From Halalkalirubrum salinum (GTDB lineage: Archaea; Halobacteriota; Halobacteria; Halobacteriales; Haloferacaceae), in contig NZ_SRSG01000004.1 of assembly GCF_005543295.1 (NCBI RefSeq), positions 1 through 50,805 on the forward strand: DNA of 50,805 bases, in the 5' to 3' direction. The position numbers and the translations under genes were made by a program. The notes beneath the pieces were generated by a model. That model worked only from the letters and a program-made list of their open reading frames with translations. It made no database searches and was not told the origin of the DNA. Positions 9,972 through 16,690 of the stretch are shown in pieces. How positions within the stretch are numbered: the stretch's first letter is position 1; each line of letters opens with the position of its first letter.

Positions 9972-12900
9972 TCAGCGTTCAGCGCTGTTGTTAAGATACG
10001 CGTCGCCGCAGCCGAGCGATCGATGTGGACAGTACTGACAGTACGGCCCCGGTGTCACTGTCTTGTAGTCGGAGCTGTTTGCGGCTTCGAGCGTCGATTT
10101 TAGCTCCGGGATCTGCTCGAACACCTCGGCGCGATCGAACAGCGTGAGCTGTGGACCCGACTCGCCAAGCGAGAGGTACCCAACTGAGGCGATCGGCTCG
10201 TCGAATCGAGCATCACAGGCCAACAGGTACAACACGAGCTGAGCGCTGTCTTCGATCGAGCGATCCGCATCAGTCGTTTTGTAGTCGATCACGACGAGGT
10301 CGTCGTCCGGAGTTCGATACACCGCGTCGACGTAGCCAGTGATCCCGTCCGCGCCGGTCCGCGCTGCCAGCGCGTCGAGAGAAAACGGCAGTTCCGAACT
10401 CACGATCGACCACTCGGAGACCACGCTTTCGAAGTAGCGATCGATACACGCCTTTGTCGCAGGCACTGCTGCCGACAGCGACTGTTGGCGAGCGATCCGT
10501 TCACAGGCGGCGTCCCACTCGGCTTTTTCCGTGTATCCCCGCCAGTAACAGTCCTCTCTAACCTCGTGAAACAGCGTTCCGATCGCCCGCTGGGAGACCG
10601 CATCCTGTCCGTCACGATCAGCAGTAGCCGCCAGCGGCGGGTCATCGAACCCATACACGACGTGATCGAGGTAGTGTTTTCGCGGACAGTCCCCGAACGC
10701 TTCCAGCGACGTGTGGCTGTGAACCCGCGGCAGCCGATCAGCACGCTCGCCGGCAGTTGGCGTCGCCTGGTACGGTGAGTCCGCGGGGGCGTCTGCTGTC
10801 AGCGTTCCCCGCTTGAGCTGTCGGGTCAGCCGGCGGATCTCTGTGATTGCTCGATCGGGACTCGCTCGCGTGCCGTCGTACCAGGTGATCTGTTCGCGGG
10901 TCGTCGTTCGAACCTGTTCGACGGCCGTCGTCAGATCACACACTGCCGTCGGATCGTCCGCCTGAATCGTCTCGACGGCGTCGGTGACCGCGTCCCACGT
11001 GTCAACCGACGGTCCGCCGTGTCGCCACCCGATCGACGGCGGGAGCAACTCGTCGAGCTCCGCCGCTGGCACCGTCGCGGTATCGTCGTTGTTCCCAAAG
11101 AGGACAAGCCGATCGCGAGCGCGGGTGATTGCGACGTGGAGCACGCGCCACTGCTCGGCAACCGCTGCCGCCGAGAGCGGCTCGGTTAGCGGGTCGATTG
11201 TTGGCGACTCGATCCGCCGGCGCAACACCGACCAGTCCGTGCGTTCACCCCAGAGCCGGAAGCTCGGCGGCGGCGCCCACGAGGGGCCGAGAAACGGCAC
11301 CAAGACGACGGGAAAGTCGAGCCCTTTGGCCTGATGGACCGTCATCACGTCGACCGCATCTTCGCTTCGATCGCCACCGTCATCGCGCCCCTGCTCGGTG
11401 TTCGTGAGTGCGGCCGGATCTGCGAGGTAATCGATGAACGCCGTCGACAGCCGGGTTTCGATCGGCGCATCCTCGAACGCGTCGATTCGGGATTCAACCG
11501 CTGGCAGGAGCCTGCGGTCGCGGTCGGTGAACGTCCAGTCGATCCGGGTCCGTTCACGAAGCTCGGCGTAGACGGCCGAGACTGAGTCCGTCTGCACAGC
11601 GTCGACGAGCGCGGGGATATCCTCCCGTGCACGAGTGAGCCCATCTGGGTTCGAGACGGCAGTCCTCTCGATCGATCCGACAGCATCGACGATCGTCCCC
11701 GCCTCGTCGGCCAGCGCGCGAATGTCTCCATCCGAAAGTCCATACACCAGCTTGAGAATCCGGATCGCGTGGCGATCGTCGCTCGGGTCGACAATGAGCC
11801 GGAGATACGCGACGAGCGTCTGTATCCCCGGCGGGAGCGACGACGAGGAGCCGCCGGCTCTGACGTGCGGGATGCTCTCTTCGGCGAGTGCCGCACACAC
11901 GGCCTCCGCCTCGCGGTTCTTTCTGACGAGTACCGCGAGTTCATCGAGGTCGTGGCCGTCGATCTCGTCGAACCCGTCGGTCAAAAGCGCCGACACTGTC
12001 GCGCTGACCTGTGCGGCCTGCGTCTCGAGGTCGCCGTCGGCCTCGACAGTACAGATCGATCGCTCGCCGCGGCCTCGATCCGAGGTGAGCGTCTTCGTAC
12101 TGCCCGGAAGCTCGTTTGAGAGGTCCAAGATCGGCTGCCGCGAGCGGAAATTCAACTCCAGCGCCATCGATTCGATTCCCGGGAATGCGGATTCGATGTC
12201 GGTGATGTTCGTCGGATCGGCCCCGCGCCACTCGTATATCGCCTGATCGGCGTCGCCGATCACGAACAGGTCTGCGTCCGTGGCCAACTGATCGATGAGT
12301 GCCAACTGTGCGCTGTCGGTATCCTGGAACTCGTCACAAAAGACGTAGCCGTAGCGATCGCACACGTCTGCACCGAGATCGCTCTCCAGCAGTGCCGTCG
12401 CGCGGCGGATCAGGCCGTTGTAGTCGACGGCCCCTCGCTCTTGTAACCGCGACTCGTACCGACGGTATCCCTCGAGGAAGTCGTGCGCTCGCAGGAATAG
12501 CTCGATGTACGAGCCCAGCCGGACAATCGGCGTCTGTGCGGTGTCCCGCAACGTCCCGCCGTGGGCGCCACCCCACGTTCCGAACAGCCCAGAGGGTACT
12601 CGCGACCAGTCACTCCCCTTCTGCGGCAGCGTTTCAATCAACGAGCGAACGATATCCGTGCAATCATCGAGGTACGACCGAACCTCCTGACCGAACGGAT
12701 CGCCCTCGTCGATCGAGGTGCTGCGGTATCGAAGGACCTGTTCGAATCGTTCGAGTCGCTCGACGAGACGACCGTGGCCCCCACTGGACGTGAACGCGAG
12801 CGCGCCGTCGCTGTCAGGGCCGAACTGCTCGTCTGCGGTCGATCGCAGGTCGCGGACGACCGATCGACACGCTATCAGCGTCTCTCGATCCGGCAGGTGT

Positions 12901-13397
12901 GTTTCAATATCGTCGGGGCTAATCCCCTCCCGGCTGAACGATTCGATGAACTGGTAAAGATCGTCCGCAGTCGCCCGATCACGGCTGACATCGCTGAGCG
13001 TGAGTCCGTCGTGAATTTCGGCGATGACCGCTCGTTTTCGATCATCGGTGAGAAGTTCGAACTCCGGATCGAGTCCGACGGCATACGCGTACTCGCGCAA
13101 CAGCCGATAACAAAACGAGTGATACGTCGAGGCGTCGATGTCGTACGCGCTCGCGTCTTCGATCGTGTCTGTCAGTCGCTCGACCGCACTGTGGGCAGCC
13201 TTGTTCGCGAACGTCAACACGAGGACGTCGTTCGGGTCAACGCCGCGTTCGTCGATGAGCCGATCAATCCGCGCGACCATCGTCGTCGTCTTTCCAGTTC
13301 CTGCACCGGCGTCGACGACGATCTGCTCGGCCTGTGCGGACGCAACGTTCGGCTGATTGCCCTTGAGTCGTGGGCTCGATGGCAAGTCGTCGGTCAT
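9972..13397 (-). CDS. AddA-like UvrD/Rep helicase with C-terminal Fe-S PD-(D/E)XK nuclease
   Basis: This 1141-residue protein combines an SF1A helicase and a RecB-type nuclease, the layout of AddA/AdnB subunits that process DNA double-strand ends for recombination. Walker A is GAGTGKT at 31-37. Motif II is DEFQDTD at 355-361, motif III GDADQAIYEWRGA at 381-393, motif V VMTVHQAKGLDFP and motif VI HVAITRARD lie further on. The C-terminal 200 residues hold GYVD...VVIDYKT and QLVLY, an intact nuclease site. Four cysteines follow the AddB/Cas4 pattern: CPRKHY, then C-x2-C-x5-C in YCQYCPHRSLGC. The ATG at 13397 overlaps the TGA of the preceding nuclease-like gene by four bases, so translation is probably coupled. 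Confidence 0.88.
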   Translation of the reverse strand: MTDDLPSSPRLKGNQPNVASAQAEQIVVDAGAGTGKTTTMVARIDRLIDERGVDPNDVLVLTFANKAAHSAVERLTDTIEDASAYDIDASTYHSFCYRLLREYAYAVGLDPEFELLTDDRKRAVIAEIHDGLTLSDVSRDRATADDLYQFIESFSREGISPDDIETHLPDRETLIACRSVVRDLRSTADEQFGPDSDGALAFTSSGGHGRLVERLERFEQVLRYRSTSIDEGDPFGQEVRSYLDDCTDIVRSLIETLPQKGSDWSRVPSGLFGTWGGAHGGTLRDTAQTPIVRLGSYIELFLRAHDFLEGYRRYESRLQERGAVDYNGLIRRATALLESDLGADVCDRYGYVFCDEFQDTDSAQLALIDQLATDADLFVIGDADQAIYEWRGADPTNITDIESAFPGIESMALELNFRSRQPILDLSNELPGSTKTLTSDRGRGERSICTVEADGDLETQAAQVSATVSALLTDGFDEIDGHDLDELAVLVRKNREAEAVCAALAEESIPHVRAGGSSSSLPPGIQTLVAYLRLIVDPSDDRHAIRILKLVYGLSDGDIRALADEAGTIVDAVGSIERTAVSNPDGLTRAREDIPALVDAVQTDSVSAVYAELRERTRIDWTFTDRDRRLLPAVESRIDAFEDAPIETRLSTAFIDYLADPAALTNTEQGRDDGGDRSEDAVDVMTVHQAKGLDFPVVLVPFLGPSWAPPPSFRLWGERTDWSVLRRRIESPTIDPLTEPLSAAAVAEQWRVLHVAITRARDRLVLFGNNDDTATVPAAELDELLPPSIGWRHGGPSVDTWDAVTDAVETIQADDPTAVCDLTTAVEQVRTTTREQITWYDGTRASPDRAITEIRRLTRQLKRGTLTADAPADSPYQATPTAGERADRLPRVHSHTSLEAFGDCPRKHYLDHVVYGFDDPPLAATADRDGQDAVSQRAIGTLFHEVREDCYWRGYTEKAEWDAACERIARQQSLSAAVPATKACIDRYFESVVSEWSIVSSELPFSLDALAARTGADGITGYVDAVYRTPDDDLVVIDYKTTDADRSIEDSAQLVLYLLACDARFDEPIASVGYLSLGESGPQLTLFDRAEVFEQIPELKSTLEAANSSDYKTVTPGPYCQYCPHRSLGCGDAYLNNSAER

Positions 13398-14272
13398 TCG
13401 AATCGCACCTCCGCGTTGATGTACGGCGAGCACATGCCGGTGTACGAACAGTCCCCACACACCGTCTTCCGAATGTCGGCGAACCGATCGCCAGGGTCGT
13501 ACGCCTGTGCGGACAGCCACGTGATGAGGTTGTCGAGCACCGAGAGCGCCGCGTCACGTTCGGCCTCGTAGGCTGCGTCGAGCCGACGGATTTCGGGAAT
13601 AATTTCGATTTCACTCGCGTCGCCTGCTTCGGGGACGCTTGGCCTGACCGTCTGGGTCAGTCCGACGTACGCGAACCCAACCGGGGATTTTCCCGCAGGT
13701 GCGCCGTCAGTGGCGAACCGATCGCCCGTCGCGAGCGCCTCCATGGTTGCAACCGCTCTGAGCACGCTCCCGGCAGGCCCTGGAATGTACATGTTGCCTC
13801 CAGTGTGTTTTGAAATTGTGTTTCTCGCGCCATCGAACGCCACGTCGTCAACGTCAAATTGATACTGCAGGACGACTGGTTGGTCGTCGATCGAGACGAT
13901 TGCGTCGATCGGACAGTCGATTTCATGACCACCCAGTCCGAGGGTCGCGATTTCGTCGCTCGCATACACCCCGGTCCCGTGGCTATCTGCGTACTGATCG
14001 AGGTACGATCGAATCGCCTCCCGGCAGTCAACGTTGACGGCTTTGTCGTCGATCGCCTCTTCGGCGAGACGGCTCAGTGCCTCGTCGATTCGATCCTCGA
14101 CGGTGCCACTGTGCGTTAGTCCAGCCGTGATCGCGTCCCGAACTGCCGCAAGCGCTCGCTCGCGTGCTTGGATGGCAGGGTCGCGAGCTATTTCGAGGCG
14201 ATAGCGGTATTCGTACTGCCTCGGACAGGCGAGATACGTCGTCAGCTCGTCGATCGCGATCGGTTCGCTCAT
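13394..14272 (-). CDS. Stand-alone Cas4/AddB-like nuclease domain, catalytic site lost
   Basis: This 292-residue protein looks like the Fe-S nuclease domain of AddB or Cas4 as a separate polypeptide. Cys16 lies in LACPRQYEYRYR, and the C-terminus has C-x2-C-x5-C at 272, 275 and 281, giving the four cysteines of an Fe-S cluster. The PD-(D/E)XK centre is altered. The first acidic position survives as Asp123 in PIDAIVS, but the D-x-K strand reads VVLQYQF, with Gln136 and Gln138 where Asp/Glu and Lys are expected. No Q-x3-Y follows. I infer a structural rather than catalytic role. It overlaps the AddB-like gene by ATGA (14269-14272) and the AddA-like gene by ATGA (13394-13397). Confidence 0.72.
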   Translation of the reverse strand: MSEPIAIDELTTYLACPRQYEYRYRLEIARDPAIQARERALAAVRDAITAGLTHSGTVEDRIDEALSRLAEEAIDDKAVNVDCREAIRSYLDQYADSHGTGVYASDEIATLGLGGHEIDCPIDAIVSIDDQPVVLQYQFDVDDVAFDGARNTISKHTGGNMYIPGPAGSVLRAVATMEALATGDRFATDGAPAGKSPVGFAYVGLTQTVRPSVPEAGDASEIEIIPEIRRLDAAYEAERDAALSVLDNLITWLSAQAYDPGDRFADIRKTVCGDCSYTGMCSPYINAEVRFE

Positions 14273-16458
14273 TGTGAGCGTTCCTCCGCAGTCCCAATAT
14301 CGCCGTTGGCCATATCGATCTGCGTGTAGACGGCGTCGCGGAACCGCGGCTCGACGTCCTCGCGGTCGCACAGTTCAGCGATTGCCGCTAACCGCTCGCG
14401 GATTGTGCGCATGTCCGCACGATCGCCGAGACTCGCCGCCCGCTCGACCGCCGAAAGCGATCGCCACGGCTCTTGTATCGCCGCAGCAGCGACACCGGTC
14501 GGCGTGTATCGGGTGATCTCTGGTTGTTCATGAGATGGTGAATCGCTCCCACCGCGGGTTCCGTTGGATCGCCCTGCGGCGTCGACGGTATATCCAGCCG
14601 CCATCGTGACCTGCGAGAGCGCCTCTAACGAGCGGAGGAACCGCGAGGGATGTCGCCGTCGACCGAGCGATCTGGTGCCACGATCGGCCGTACAGAGGTA
14701 GAGCCGGTCGGTCCCGACCCGAGCACCAACAGCGAGTTGTCGCCGCGAAAGCGCAGTGTAGTAGGCGTCGTAGGCGTTGCGATCGGGCGTCTCGACCGCC
14801 GAAAACGACGTTGACACCGTTGTGGGACCGAGCGTTGTCACACCGGGATACGCCGCCGATCGTTTGACCCAGTCGGTCGGAAACAGTCGGGTAAGTGTCT
14901 GTGTGTCGGGCGGATAGATGCCCTCGACGACATCGACGAGAAAGACGATCGACCGCGAGTCGTACTTTGCGACCCGAATTGGATCGACGAGGACGCCGTT
15001 TTCTTCGACAGACAGCTCTGTCGTGTACTGATCCGGTGCGACGTACTGGATCGCCCGTTCGAGCGTCTCTAAGAATGACTGATAGCCGCCGGCCAGGAAG
15101 TCCGCGCCGTCGAAGAAGGCGGCAATGTCGCGGATCTCTCGGATGTTGCGATAGGAGCCGTAGGCGTCGACCTCGCGTTCGTCGGCGATCCGATCTTTCA
15201 GGTCTGTTTCGACGATCCAGCGATCGATCGCTCCCGCGATCGTCGGCTCCGCGCGGATCGTCTCAAGCAACGCCGCGTCAACTGTGGTCCGCCCCTCGAG
15301 CGTCGCCATTGCCTCGGCATCGTCGGAAGCCAACACCCGGATCAGTGCGTGAATCTCACGAATCGCGGGATCCTCTGAGAGTCCCTCGACAGTTGCCGAT
15401 GCCGTCGAGACGCCGGCACGGCGAAGGATCGACCGGGCCTCGTGAACCGGTTGATTGATGTCGCGAAGCAACACGGCAAAATCCTCGTAGCGATAGCCCG
15501 CCTGGTCTCGAAGCGCCTCGATCTCTTCGGCGATCGCCTCAAGTTCAGCCGCAAAAGTCTCCGCAGCGACGCGATAGGCGGTGTGATCGCGGTCATCGGG
15601 CAAGGCCCCGGATGCGAGCCAGCGGCCGATCGCCGCCGGGTCCGAAAGCGCCTCGGAATCGAACTCCGTCGGCACACACTGCAGTCCCGCGGCCGTCCCG
15701 ATCGACTCGACCGAGCCGCTTTCGTTCCAGATCCGCTGGACGCTCGCGTCCCGTTCACCGAGACAGTACAGCTCCGCGTCCGTCGTTAGTGCCGAGAGAT
15801 ACGATCGTTCGAGCGAGCCGAACTCCTCGAAATCGACAACGAGCACGGCGTCGAATAGCGCCGACACGAACTCGCTGACAGCAGGCGTCGAGAGGGCGTC
15901 ACGGGCTCGTTCGACCAGCTGGGCCTGTTCGAGCGACGATCGCTCCGCTAGTGCTTCCCGAAATCTTGTTTGGACCGCTTCGAGTTCTTCGATCGCGGCG
16001 GCCATTGTCGGATCGTCGTCGGTTCGATCGCCGAATCCACCCCAGCTCGCGACGAGGAGAACCCGGCCGACGTCGCGACCGAACGACTCCGCCTCGGCGG
16101 CCCGTTTGAGGTACGGCGTTGACCAGTTCCACCCATTGATGACGGTCCGGAGCAACTCGTAGCGCTCGTAGTCTGAGAGGACCTGTTCATCCGGGGCGGC
16201 GTAGGCGTGGATCGAGGCCGCGTGATCGAGCACTGATTCGACGTTCGGCCGGGCTGGAATCGACAGCTCCGCGGCGAGGTCGCGCTCGAACGCCGTGGTA
16301 CCACTCGGAAACCGCTTGAGAACGAGGATATCGGCTGGATCGTGGCCTTCAGCGAGGAGTGTTTCGTAGGCGCTCGCAGCCCGGGCCGCGAGCGATCTTG
16401 CGGAGAACTCATCGATTCGGAGTCGACCCGCAAGCGTTCTCTCGTGATGTTCGCTCAC
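14269..16458 (-). CDS. AddB/AdnA-like inactivated UvrD-fold subunit
   Basis: This 729-residue protein shows a degenerate SF1 helicase layout. No Walker A (G-x4-GKT) is present in the N-terminal domain. The motif II region reads VVDFEEFGSLERSYLSAL (about 207-224), clearly homologous in position to DEFQDTD of its partner. It is followed by DAELYCLGERDASVQRIW, matching DADLFVIGDADQAIYEW. Later YDSRSIVFLVDVVEGIYPP and YTALSRRQLAVG resemble motifs V and VI of AddB-type proteins. In B. subtilis AddB and mycobacterial AdnA, the corresponding helicase fold does not drive unwinding and can read a Chi-like sequence. AddB usually carries a C-terminal nuclease; here that part is the next gene. It starts with GTG at 16458 and is first in a three-gene coupled operon. 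Confidence 0.8.
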   Translation of the reverse strand: MSEHHERTLAGRLRIDEFSARSLAARAASAYETLLAEGHDPADILVLKRFPSGTTAFERDLAAELSIPARPNVESVLDHAASIHAYAAPDEQVLSDYERYELLRTVINGWNWSTPYLKRAAEAESFGRDVGRVLLVASWGGFGDRTDDDPTMAAAIEELEAVQTRFREALAERSSLEQAQLVERARDALSTPAVSEFVSALFDAVLVVDFEEFGSLERSYLSALTTDAELYCLGERDASVQRIWNESGSVESIGTAAGLQCVPTEFDSEALSDPAAIGRWLASGALPDDRDHTAYRVAAETFAAELEAIAEEIEALRDQAGYRYEDFAVLLRDINQPVHEARSILRRAGVSTASATVEGLSEDPAIREIHALIRVLASDDAEAMATLEGRTTVDAALLETIRAEPTIAGAIDRWIVETDLKDRIADEREVDAYGSYRNIREIRDIAAFFDGADFLAGGYQSFLETLERAIQYVAPDQYTTELSVEENGVLVDPIRVAKYDSRSIVFLVDVVEGIYPPDTQTLTRLFPTDWVKRSAAYPGVTTLGPTTVSTSFSAVETPDRNAYDAYYTALSRRQLAVGARVGTDRLYLCTADRGTRSLGRRRHPSRFLRSLEALSQVTMAAGYTVDAAGRSNGTRGGSDSPSHEQPEITRYTPTGVAAAAIQEPWRSLSAVERAASLGDRADMRTIRERLAAIAELCDREDVEPRFRDAVYTQIDMANGDIGTAEERSQ

Positions 16459-16690
16459 AGGCAGCGTTGTGCGGCATCGTACTTAAGCGTGTGACCGCGG
16501 GAATCGCTGTAAACGGATCGTATAATCGTGACTCACTCCCGAGAGTGCCTCGTATCCATGTACAACACCCGACGTTCCGCCCGGTTGTGCAAATACCACG
16601 TACCGGTTGTACAATTACCACGTACCGGTTGTGCAAATACCACGTACAACCGCGTTAATGGTATCATTCCAGCCAAACTCCATAGCATAC
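16459..16690. promoter_or_regulatory. Divergent promoter region between the AddB-like operon and a winged-helix gene
   Basis: These 232 bases separate two divergent genes. On the minus strand, CTTAAGTA (about 16478-16485) lies 20-27 bases before the GTG at 16458 and could be the TATA element of the helicase-nuclease operon. Another AT-rich spot is at 16519-16524. On the plus strand, the 22-bp repeats end at 16646, and a weak TATA-like GTTAATGGTAT lies about 30 bases before the winged-helix ATG. Confidence 0.45.
16581..16646. repeat. Three 22-bp direct repeats (iteron-like operator)
   Basis: Units at 16581-16602, 16603-16624 and 16625-16646 follow each other without spacers. Each reads CCGGTTGTRCAA then WTACCACGTA. 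Units 1 and 3 are identical and unit 2 differs at two positions. Each unit contains TTGTRCAA, a perfect palindrome in unit 2. Partial inverted copies flank the array (GTACAAC at about 16560 and GTACAACCG at about 16645). The array abuts the putative TATA region of the winged-helix gene at 16691, so autoregulation is the simplest inference. Confidence 0.75.

Follow-up and report, generated by a model that had tools for sequence, protein, structure and literature searches.

Can the AddB half of an AddAB-type enzyme be carried by two genes rather than one, and does it then keep its nuclease? AddAB and RecBCD are the textbook bacterial machines of this class, and the question is raised for the Archaea by a 50,805-nucleotide stretch of DNA from Halalkalirubrum salinum (contig NZ_SRSG01000004.1, positions 1 to 50,805), referred to throughout as the window. 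On its minus strand lie three adjoining genes, here designated P1, P2, and P3, which a preliminary description, made from the DNA letters, had interpreted as a three-gene relative of the AddAB and AdnAB helicase-nucleases. As outlined below, P1-P2-P3 is probably a split AddAB-type DNA-end helicase-nuclease that has turned RecBC-like in possessing one motor and one nuclease. The family to which it belongs divides into two clades, A and B, with the window's copy in clade B.

The open reading frames and their coordinates agree with the preliminary description of three minus-strand genes joined by two four-base ATGA overlaps (Table 1). Upstream GTG codons in the list of open reading frames give longer versions of P2 (325 residues) and P3 (1182 residues); the starts were placed at the ATGA overlaps because these positions are conserved among relatives. 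A search of GTDB conducted with P1, such that a P3 gene lacking P1 falls outside the sampling, retrieved 80 haloarchaeal loci. The three genes are complete in 79 of these, the eightieth ending at a contig edge. With the relatives' starts taken as the ATG or GTG closest to the overlap, a choice that biases the values somewhat toward short overlaps, P1 and P2 overlap by four or eight bases in all 80 loci, and P2 and P3 by four or eight bases in 72 of 79, by one base in six, and by 11 bases in one. The same layout is observed in all 42 loci of a first set (Halobacteria genomes together with the window and locus L007), and in 194 Halobacteria genomes the matches to P2 mostly adjoin P1 where both occur. 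The overlaps suggest that production of the three proteins may be stoichiometrically coupled.

The division of the AddB half into two genes is genuine and conserved, and the gene order proposed in the preliminary description holds across the haloarchaeal loci retrieved. That description had also raised the prospect of a sequencing frameshift, or of a fused version in other haloarchaea, yet no fused AddB version of P1-P2 was found in any haloarchaeal locus retrieved. Fused AddB proteins do occur in other archaea, and from these one might imagine that the layout arose by a sequencing or assembly frameshift, or that it represents a decaying pseudogene. This reading is refuted by the identical split in 80/80 GTDB loci, by values of ω well below 1 for P1, P2, and P3, and by the conserved start/stop overlaps, and its probability is negligible. 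Nor is the architecture peculiar to this genome. It belongs to an old haloarchaeal family of two clades, and a second set resides in the same genome.

P1 contains no Pfam domain, and the Walker A pattern [AG]x4GK[ST] is absent from every P1 sequence checked. The single sequence weakly matches the NCBIfam model TIGR02773 addB (E = 2.6e-4, residues 298-375). A profile built from 34 P1 sequences matches, among sequences in the PDB, AddB from B. subtilis (3u44_B, E = 6.5e-9), UvrD1 (5.9e-9), and AdnA (6ppj_A, 1.3e-3). When the AlphaFold2 model of P1 (predicted local distance difference test score, pLDDT, of 86) was submitted to Foldseek, the highest query-normalized template modeling scores, 0.62-0.63, were obtained with AddB (3u4q_B and 4cei_B, E about 1e-21), and AdnB was a strong match as well. 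P1 is accordingly the AddB/AdnA-like protein without a Walker A motif that had been proposed. In many public plasmid records (PLSDB, e.g., L188, L190, and L191) P1 is named "DNA helicase UvrD" though it lacks Walker A.

P3 displays the Pfam domains UvrD-helicase (1.6e-59), UvrD_C (2.4e-24), and PDDEXK_1 (1.3e-21). Its best match in NCBIfam is PcrA/Rep/UvrD, followed by AddA and RecB, with every score below the cut-off. In addition to an intact catalytic site, the nuclease domain carries the iron-sulfur (Fe-S) cysteines C904, C1120, C1123, and C1130. The motor and nuclease residues checked do not vary in any of 116 near-full-length homologues (43 from clade A and 73 from clade B), and these residues, together with the Pfam domains, bear out the assignment of P3 as AddA-like with both activities intact.

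P2 matches PF12705 (PDDEXK_1, E = 1.1e-5), and the best Foldseek matches to its AlphaFold2 model (pLDDT of 89) are the Cas4-family structure ACE1 (9iac), AddB (4cej_B and 4ceh_B), and AdnA (6ppr_A). Profiles of the P2 clades gave no meaningful match to PDB sequences. Because the profile-profile match to AddB is weak, the identity of P2 as an AddB domain rests on its position, its fold, and its link to clade A. Given that P1 aligns with the front part of AddB and P2, weakly, with the C-terminal part, P1 and P2 are collinear with AddB.

Does P2 still cut? In clade A, 46 of 46 P2 sequences read C-H-D-D-Y-K-Q-Y-C-C-C, that is, an intact H...D...DYK...QxxxY site, which in the numbering of L007 corresponds to H45, D141, D154-Y-K156, Q190, and Y194 along with the four cysteines. 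Four further P2 copies on plasmids are of the active type, one having an aspartate in place of the motif-I histidine. In clade B, the motif-I histidine, the motif-III lysine, and the motif-IV glutamine and tyrosine are gone in 75/75 and the motif-III acid in 74/75, whereas the motif-II aspartate and the four Fe-S cysteines are kept in 75/75. Note that these counts pool both locus sets, some genomes occurring in both, and thus refer to sequences. The sole clade B P2 with a motif-III acid, from Halorussus ruber (L090), reads DYR and may represent an intermediate state. In the window, the motif-II aspartate is retained as D123, and an arginine and a threonine replace the motif-IV glutamine and tyrosine.

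Judged by its residues, the window P2 is a pseudo-nuclease, its cutting site lost and its Fe-S cysteines retained. The preliminary description was correct in assigning it a Cas4/AddB-like fold and a gene of its own; it erred in calling the protein a nuclease, as all catalytic residues but the motif-II aspartate are gone. Values of ω between close pairs of clade B P2 genes are 0.15-0.38, indicating that P2 is maintained by purifying selection. The invariance of that aspartate, together with the existence of PD-(D/E)XK enzymes with a moved acid or lysine (PMC1185551), might suggest that P2 still cuts by means of a migrated or alternative catalytic residue and that the enzyme keeps two nucleases. 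No column in the clade B alignment supplies a replacement lysine, however, the best reaching 12%, and hence nothing points to a lysine having migrated. The histidine, lysine, glutamine, and tyrosine are lost in all clade B members, only one of which retains the motif-III acid, and the substituting residues differ from member to member. An active P2 is thus considered quite improbable.

Table 1. Positions in the window of the P1-P2-P3 genes, their junctions, selected residues, and the adjacent repeat.
Feature	Position	Strand	Remarks
P1	14269..16458	minus	729 aa, GTG start; AddB/AdnA/RecC-like helicase-fold scaffold without Walker A
P2	13394..14272	minus	292 aa, ATG start; separate AddB/Cas4-type PD-(D/E)XK domain
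P3	9972..13397	minus	1141 aa, ATG start; AddA-like UvrD-family helicase fused to PD-(D/E)XK nuclease
ATGA overlap, P1 stop/P2 start	14269..14272	minus	
ATGA overlap, P2 stop/P3 start	13394..13397	minus	
P3 nuclease domain	10017..10718	minus	intact H944, D1024, D1038-Y-K1040, Q1053-x3-Y1057
P2 Cys16	14225..14227	minus	first Fe-S ligand position, invariant
P2 R45	14138..14140	minus	motif-I His position of the active clade, by alignment
P2 residues 136-138 (Q-Y-Q)	13859..13867	minus	motif III, D-Y-K in the active clade (D154/Y155/K156 of L007), by alignment
P2 Cys272, Cys275, Cys281	13430..13459	minus	C-terminal Fe-S cysteine cluster, invariant
22-bp repeat CCGGTTGTGCAAATACCACGTA	16581..16647	n/a	three tandem copies between P1 and the divergent winged helix-turn-helix gene

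In a tree calculated from P1 only, a single branch divides clades A and B with a support of 98 in the Shimodaira-Hasegawa-like approximate likelihood ratio test; the tree was built by a quick method, contains some long branches, and is unrooted. The sub-branch of the window groups with archaeon SHRA6 and Natronocalculus. The nuclease-active P2 would be the ancestral state, given that the wider nuclease family is active. P1 is present in 74 of 194 Halobacteria genomes and, in a search blind to clade, in 103 of the 116 genomes of Natrialbaceae; the named copies from that family fall mostly in clade B on the P1 tree. When 393 genomes were drawn from across the phylum, the matches outside the Halobacteria were partial and led to open frames of about 920-1150 residues. 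Eight such places were retrieved, four of which proved to be a fused AddB beside AddA and four a match to a UvrD-nuclease protein instead. Fused two-gene AddAB pairs, then, exist in archaea outside the Halobacteria. Beyond the phylum, the search was a pattern scan of GTDB contigs and of plasmid and phage records. A virus-borne origin was rejected, there being zero P1 matches among 50,697 phage records.

How does this architecture compare with those of known enzymes? As in AddAB (RexAB), an AddA-like protein containing a superfamily 1A motor and a PD-(D/E)XK nuclease (P3) is accompanied by an AddB-like partner, here composed of a motor-dead helicase fold (P1) and an Fe-S nuclease fold (P2), the latter with the four cysteines of the AddB-type nuclease domain invariant. 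In AddAB, however, which is bacterial, the AddB nuclease belongs to the same chain and both nucleases are intact, whereas the archaeal P2 is a separate gene in every GTDB locus and is degenerate throughout clade B, though not in clade A. Clade B resembles RecBCD, as far as its residues indicate, in that one active nuclease would reside on the motor subunit and the partner would combine dead helicase and dead nuclease folds. RecC is a single chain, whereas P1 and P2 are two. The four Fe-S cysteines and the motif-II aspartate persist in P2, whereas RecC retains no metal-ligating PD-(D/E)XK residue (PMC1185551). No RecD-like gene was found among the window neighbors examined with Pfam, and none was evident among the conserved flanking families; a genome-wide search for RecD was not made. 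P1 matches AdnA of the mycobacterial AdnAB by both profile and fold. AdnA and AdnB each carry a motor and a nuclease, whereas P1 has neither Walker A nor a nuclease domain. A three-gene split AddAB was not described in those portions of the literature on archaeal or split AddAB that were available.

The UvrD-Cas4 proteins (pfam12705) share their domain order with P3, and P2 has a Cas4-like fold and Fe-S cysteines; unfused UvrD and Cas4-like operons are reported in Clostridiales (PMC5704561). The window P2 differs from Cas4 in having the four cysteines without motifs I, III, and IV. Since UvrD-Cas4 fusions, some of them stand-alone, are found in many bacteria and mesophilic archaea according to the same paper, P3 might function alone as a fusion of the type described by Hudaiberdiev et al., with P1 and P2 constituting a DNA-binding unit of their own whose only connection to P3 is the common operon. 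P1 and P2 jointly, however, match the fold of AddB, the protein that pairs with AddA. Moreover, contig ends apart, no locus retrieved has P1 without P2 and P3, although the loci were retrieved by P1 and a solitary P3 was not sought. Neither an AddB-like third protein nor a dead nuclease is described for the UvrD-Cas4 operons in the portion of PMC5704561 consulted. Independent action of P3 is regarded as highly doubtful.

A split AddAB-type enzyme with a RecBC-like division of labor suggests the following model. P1, P2, and P3 would assemble into a single complex for which a DNA end is the point of entry. P3, the AddA half, would supply the sole motor and the sole working nuclease, translocating in the 3'-5' direction and cutting. 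The AddB half would consist of P1, a helicase-like protein acting on the unwound strand as a guiding scaffold or a scanner, and P2, a nuclease-fold domain that may serve as a structural Fe-S gate akin to the dead nuclease domain of RecC. According to the title of PMC2658068, which is cited in PMC4824097, AddAB cannot bind broken DNA without an Fe-S cluster. In that enzyme the dead helicase domain of AddB scans for Chi (PMC4824097), and in RecC the dead nuclease domain forms a hoop for single-stranded DNA (PMC1185551). Rigden suggested that AddAB resembles the stage preceding inactivation of the RecC nuclease (PMC1185551). Loss of the P2 nuclease would likewise have converted a two-nuclease, AddAB-like enzyme, such as clade A still has, into a RecBC-like enzyme with a single nuclease. 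Clade B appears to fit the RecC-type picture in its retention of the Fe-S cysteines, its loss of one nuclease, and its intact partner nuclease, and the best reading is that the RecBC-like state was reached independently of the bacteria.

Several observations weigh against this interpretation. The P1 model also fits UvrD and Rep well in Foldseek. The preliminary description had anticipated separate profile matches to the N- and C-terminal portions of AddB. Profile-profile comparison with fused archaeal AddB indeed places P1, at a probability of 96-97%, over the region preceding the AddB nuclease domain, whereas the alignment of P2 with the C-terminal part is weak (hhalign probability of 8-20%). 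Finally, the two nucleases of AddAB divide the strands between them, AddA cutting the 3' strand and AddB the 5' strand (PMC4824097), and therefore, if P2 does not cut, resection to a 3' overhang is not secured. Without an AddB-type nuclease, P3 alone must resect, or the product differs.

The neighborhoods of the two clades bear on a further alternative, namely that clade B, fixed in the chromosome, is a system directed against viruses or plasmids that degrades invading DNA ends and has no role in homologous recombination. At least 8 of the 34 named clade A loci have the Argonaute-PLD (APAP) genes ago and agaP upstream in the same orientation, and P1 begins a few bases past the agaP stop in such loci. 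The order ago-agaP-P1-P2-P3 on one strand is seen in L131 (3124-10061), L133, L143, L149, L150, L157, and L167, and is probably a five-gene unit. PMC11442185 mentions, next to some ago-agaP operons, a helicase gene that is probably P3, although the part of that report available does not describe P1, P2, or a relation to AddAB. Other clade A copies are situated near BREX-5 and restriction-modification genes and also on haloarchaeal plasmids; clade A is mobile and defense-linked. P3 scores against the Gabija GajB models, as UvrD-family helicases generally do; no PADLOC match to GajA was found among P1-P3, nor a GajA-type partner by Pfam among the window neighbors.

The surroundings of clade B are of a different character. 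Its commonest flanking families are mostly not common to clade A and include no recurring defense gene, in a survey that was rough in that open reading frame calling in G+C-rich DNA includes some antisense frames. A UvrA-like gene, named from sequence alone, lies near P1-P3 in 14 of 46 clade B loci. In the window, the neighbors examined with Pfam are housekeeping-like (an Obg-like GTPase, an ABC transporter, and a Rieske protein) and also include a winged helix-turn-helix protein, and no Piwi/Argonaute protein is present in the genome. Near-fixation within one archaeal family is also unlike mobile defense. A defense function for clade B is hence unlikely, though worthy of serious consideration. 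In the split AddAB-type reading, clade B would instead serve chromosomal repair, and clade A defense. The tandem 22-bp repeat upstream of P1 (Table 1) is absent elsewhere in the genome, the sister species has four copies in the same place, and the repeat is a possible operator.

The same genome holds additional sets. L007 (contig C1, 2895-9306) is a second three-gene set, belonging to clade A, with an intact P2 nuclease and located near a DprA/ShosA-like gene. L009 (contig C59, 4246-9733) is a two-gene pair encoding an 868-residue PDDEXK_1 protein and a 962-residue UvrD-nuclease, which brings the UvrD-nuclease sets in the genome to at least four. In L008 (contig C37, 49-11843) a 1211-residue protein, weakly P1-like, adjoins a 1211-residue UvrD-nuclease, followed by proteins of 1022 and 457 residues of no recognized kind. 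The three partner proteins in L008 had no PADLOC match, and the locus is possibly an uncharacterized defense system.

Two NurA-domain proteins are encoded in the genome (contigs C32 and C18; L178 and L179), and at least one occurs in each of 116 Natrialbaceae genomes. The notion that P1-P2-P3 replaces NurA-HerA was therefore rejected. End resection in H. volcanii has been attributed to Mre11-Rad50, and that organism has been stated to lack NurA (PMC7776575). The NurA profile nonetheless matches the H. volcanii control genome, at odds with that statement.

It is tentatively proposed, with less assurance than the RecBC-like reading of P1-P2-P3 itself, that the haloarchaea hold both stages of a passage from AddAB-like to RecBC-like enzymes: a mobile, defense-linked, two-nuclease clade A, in part behind Argonaute-PLD genes, and a nearly fixed, one-nuclease clade B with an Fe-S pseudo-nuclease, the latter a domesticated chromosomal DNA-end processor beside NurA. 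The system may be hidden by annotation because of the name given to P1 in plasmid records. The linkage of clade A to Argonaute-PLD suggests that its P1-P2-P3 may be a helicase-nuclease partner of those systems. A near-core archaeal AddAB-type enzyme with a two-gene AddB amounts to a natural dissection of AddB, and the paired clades provide a test of why the second nuclease goes while the Fe-S cysteines stay, a step proposed for RecC (PMC1185551).

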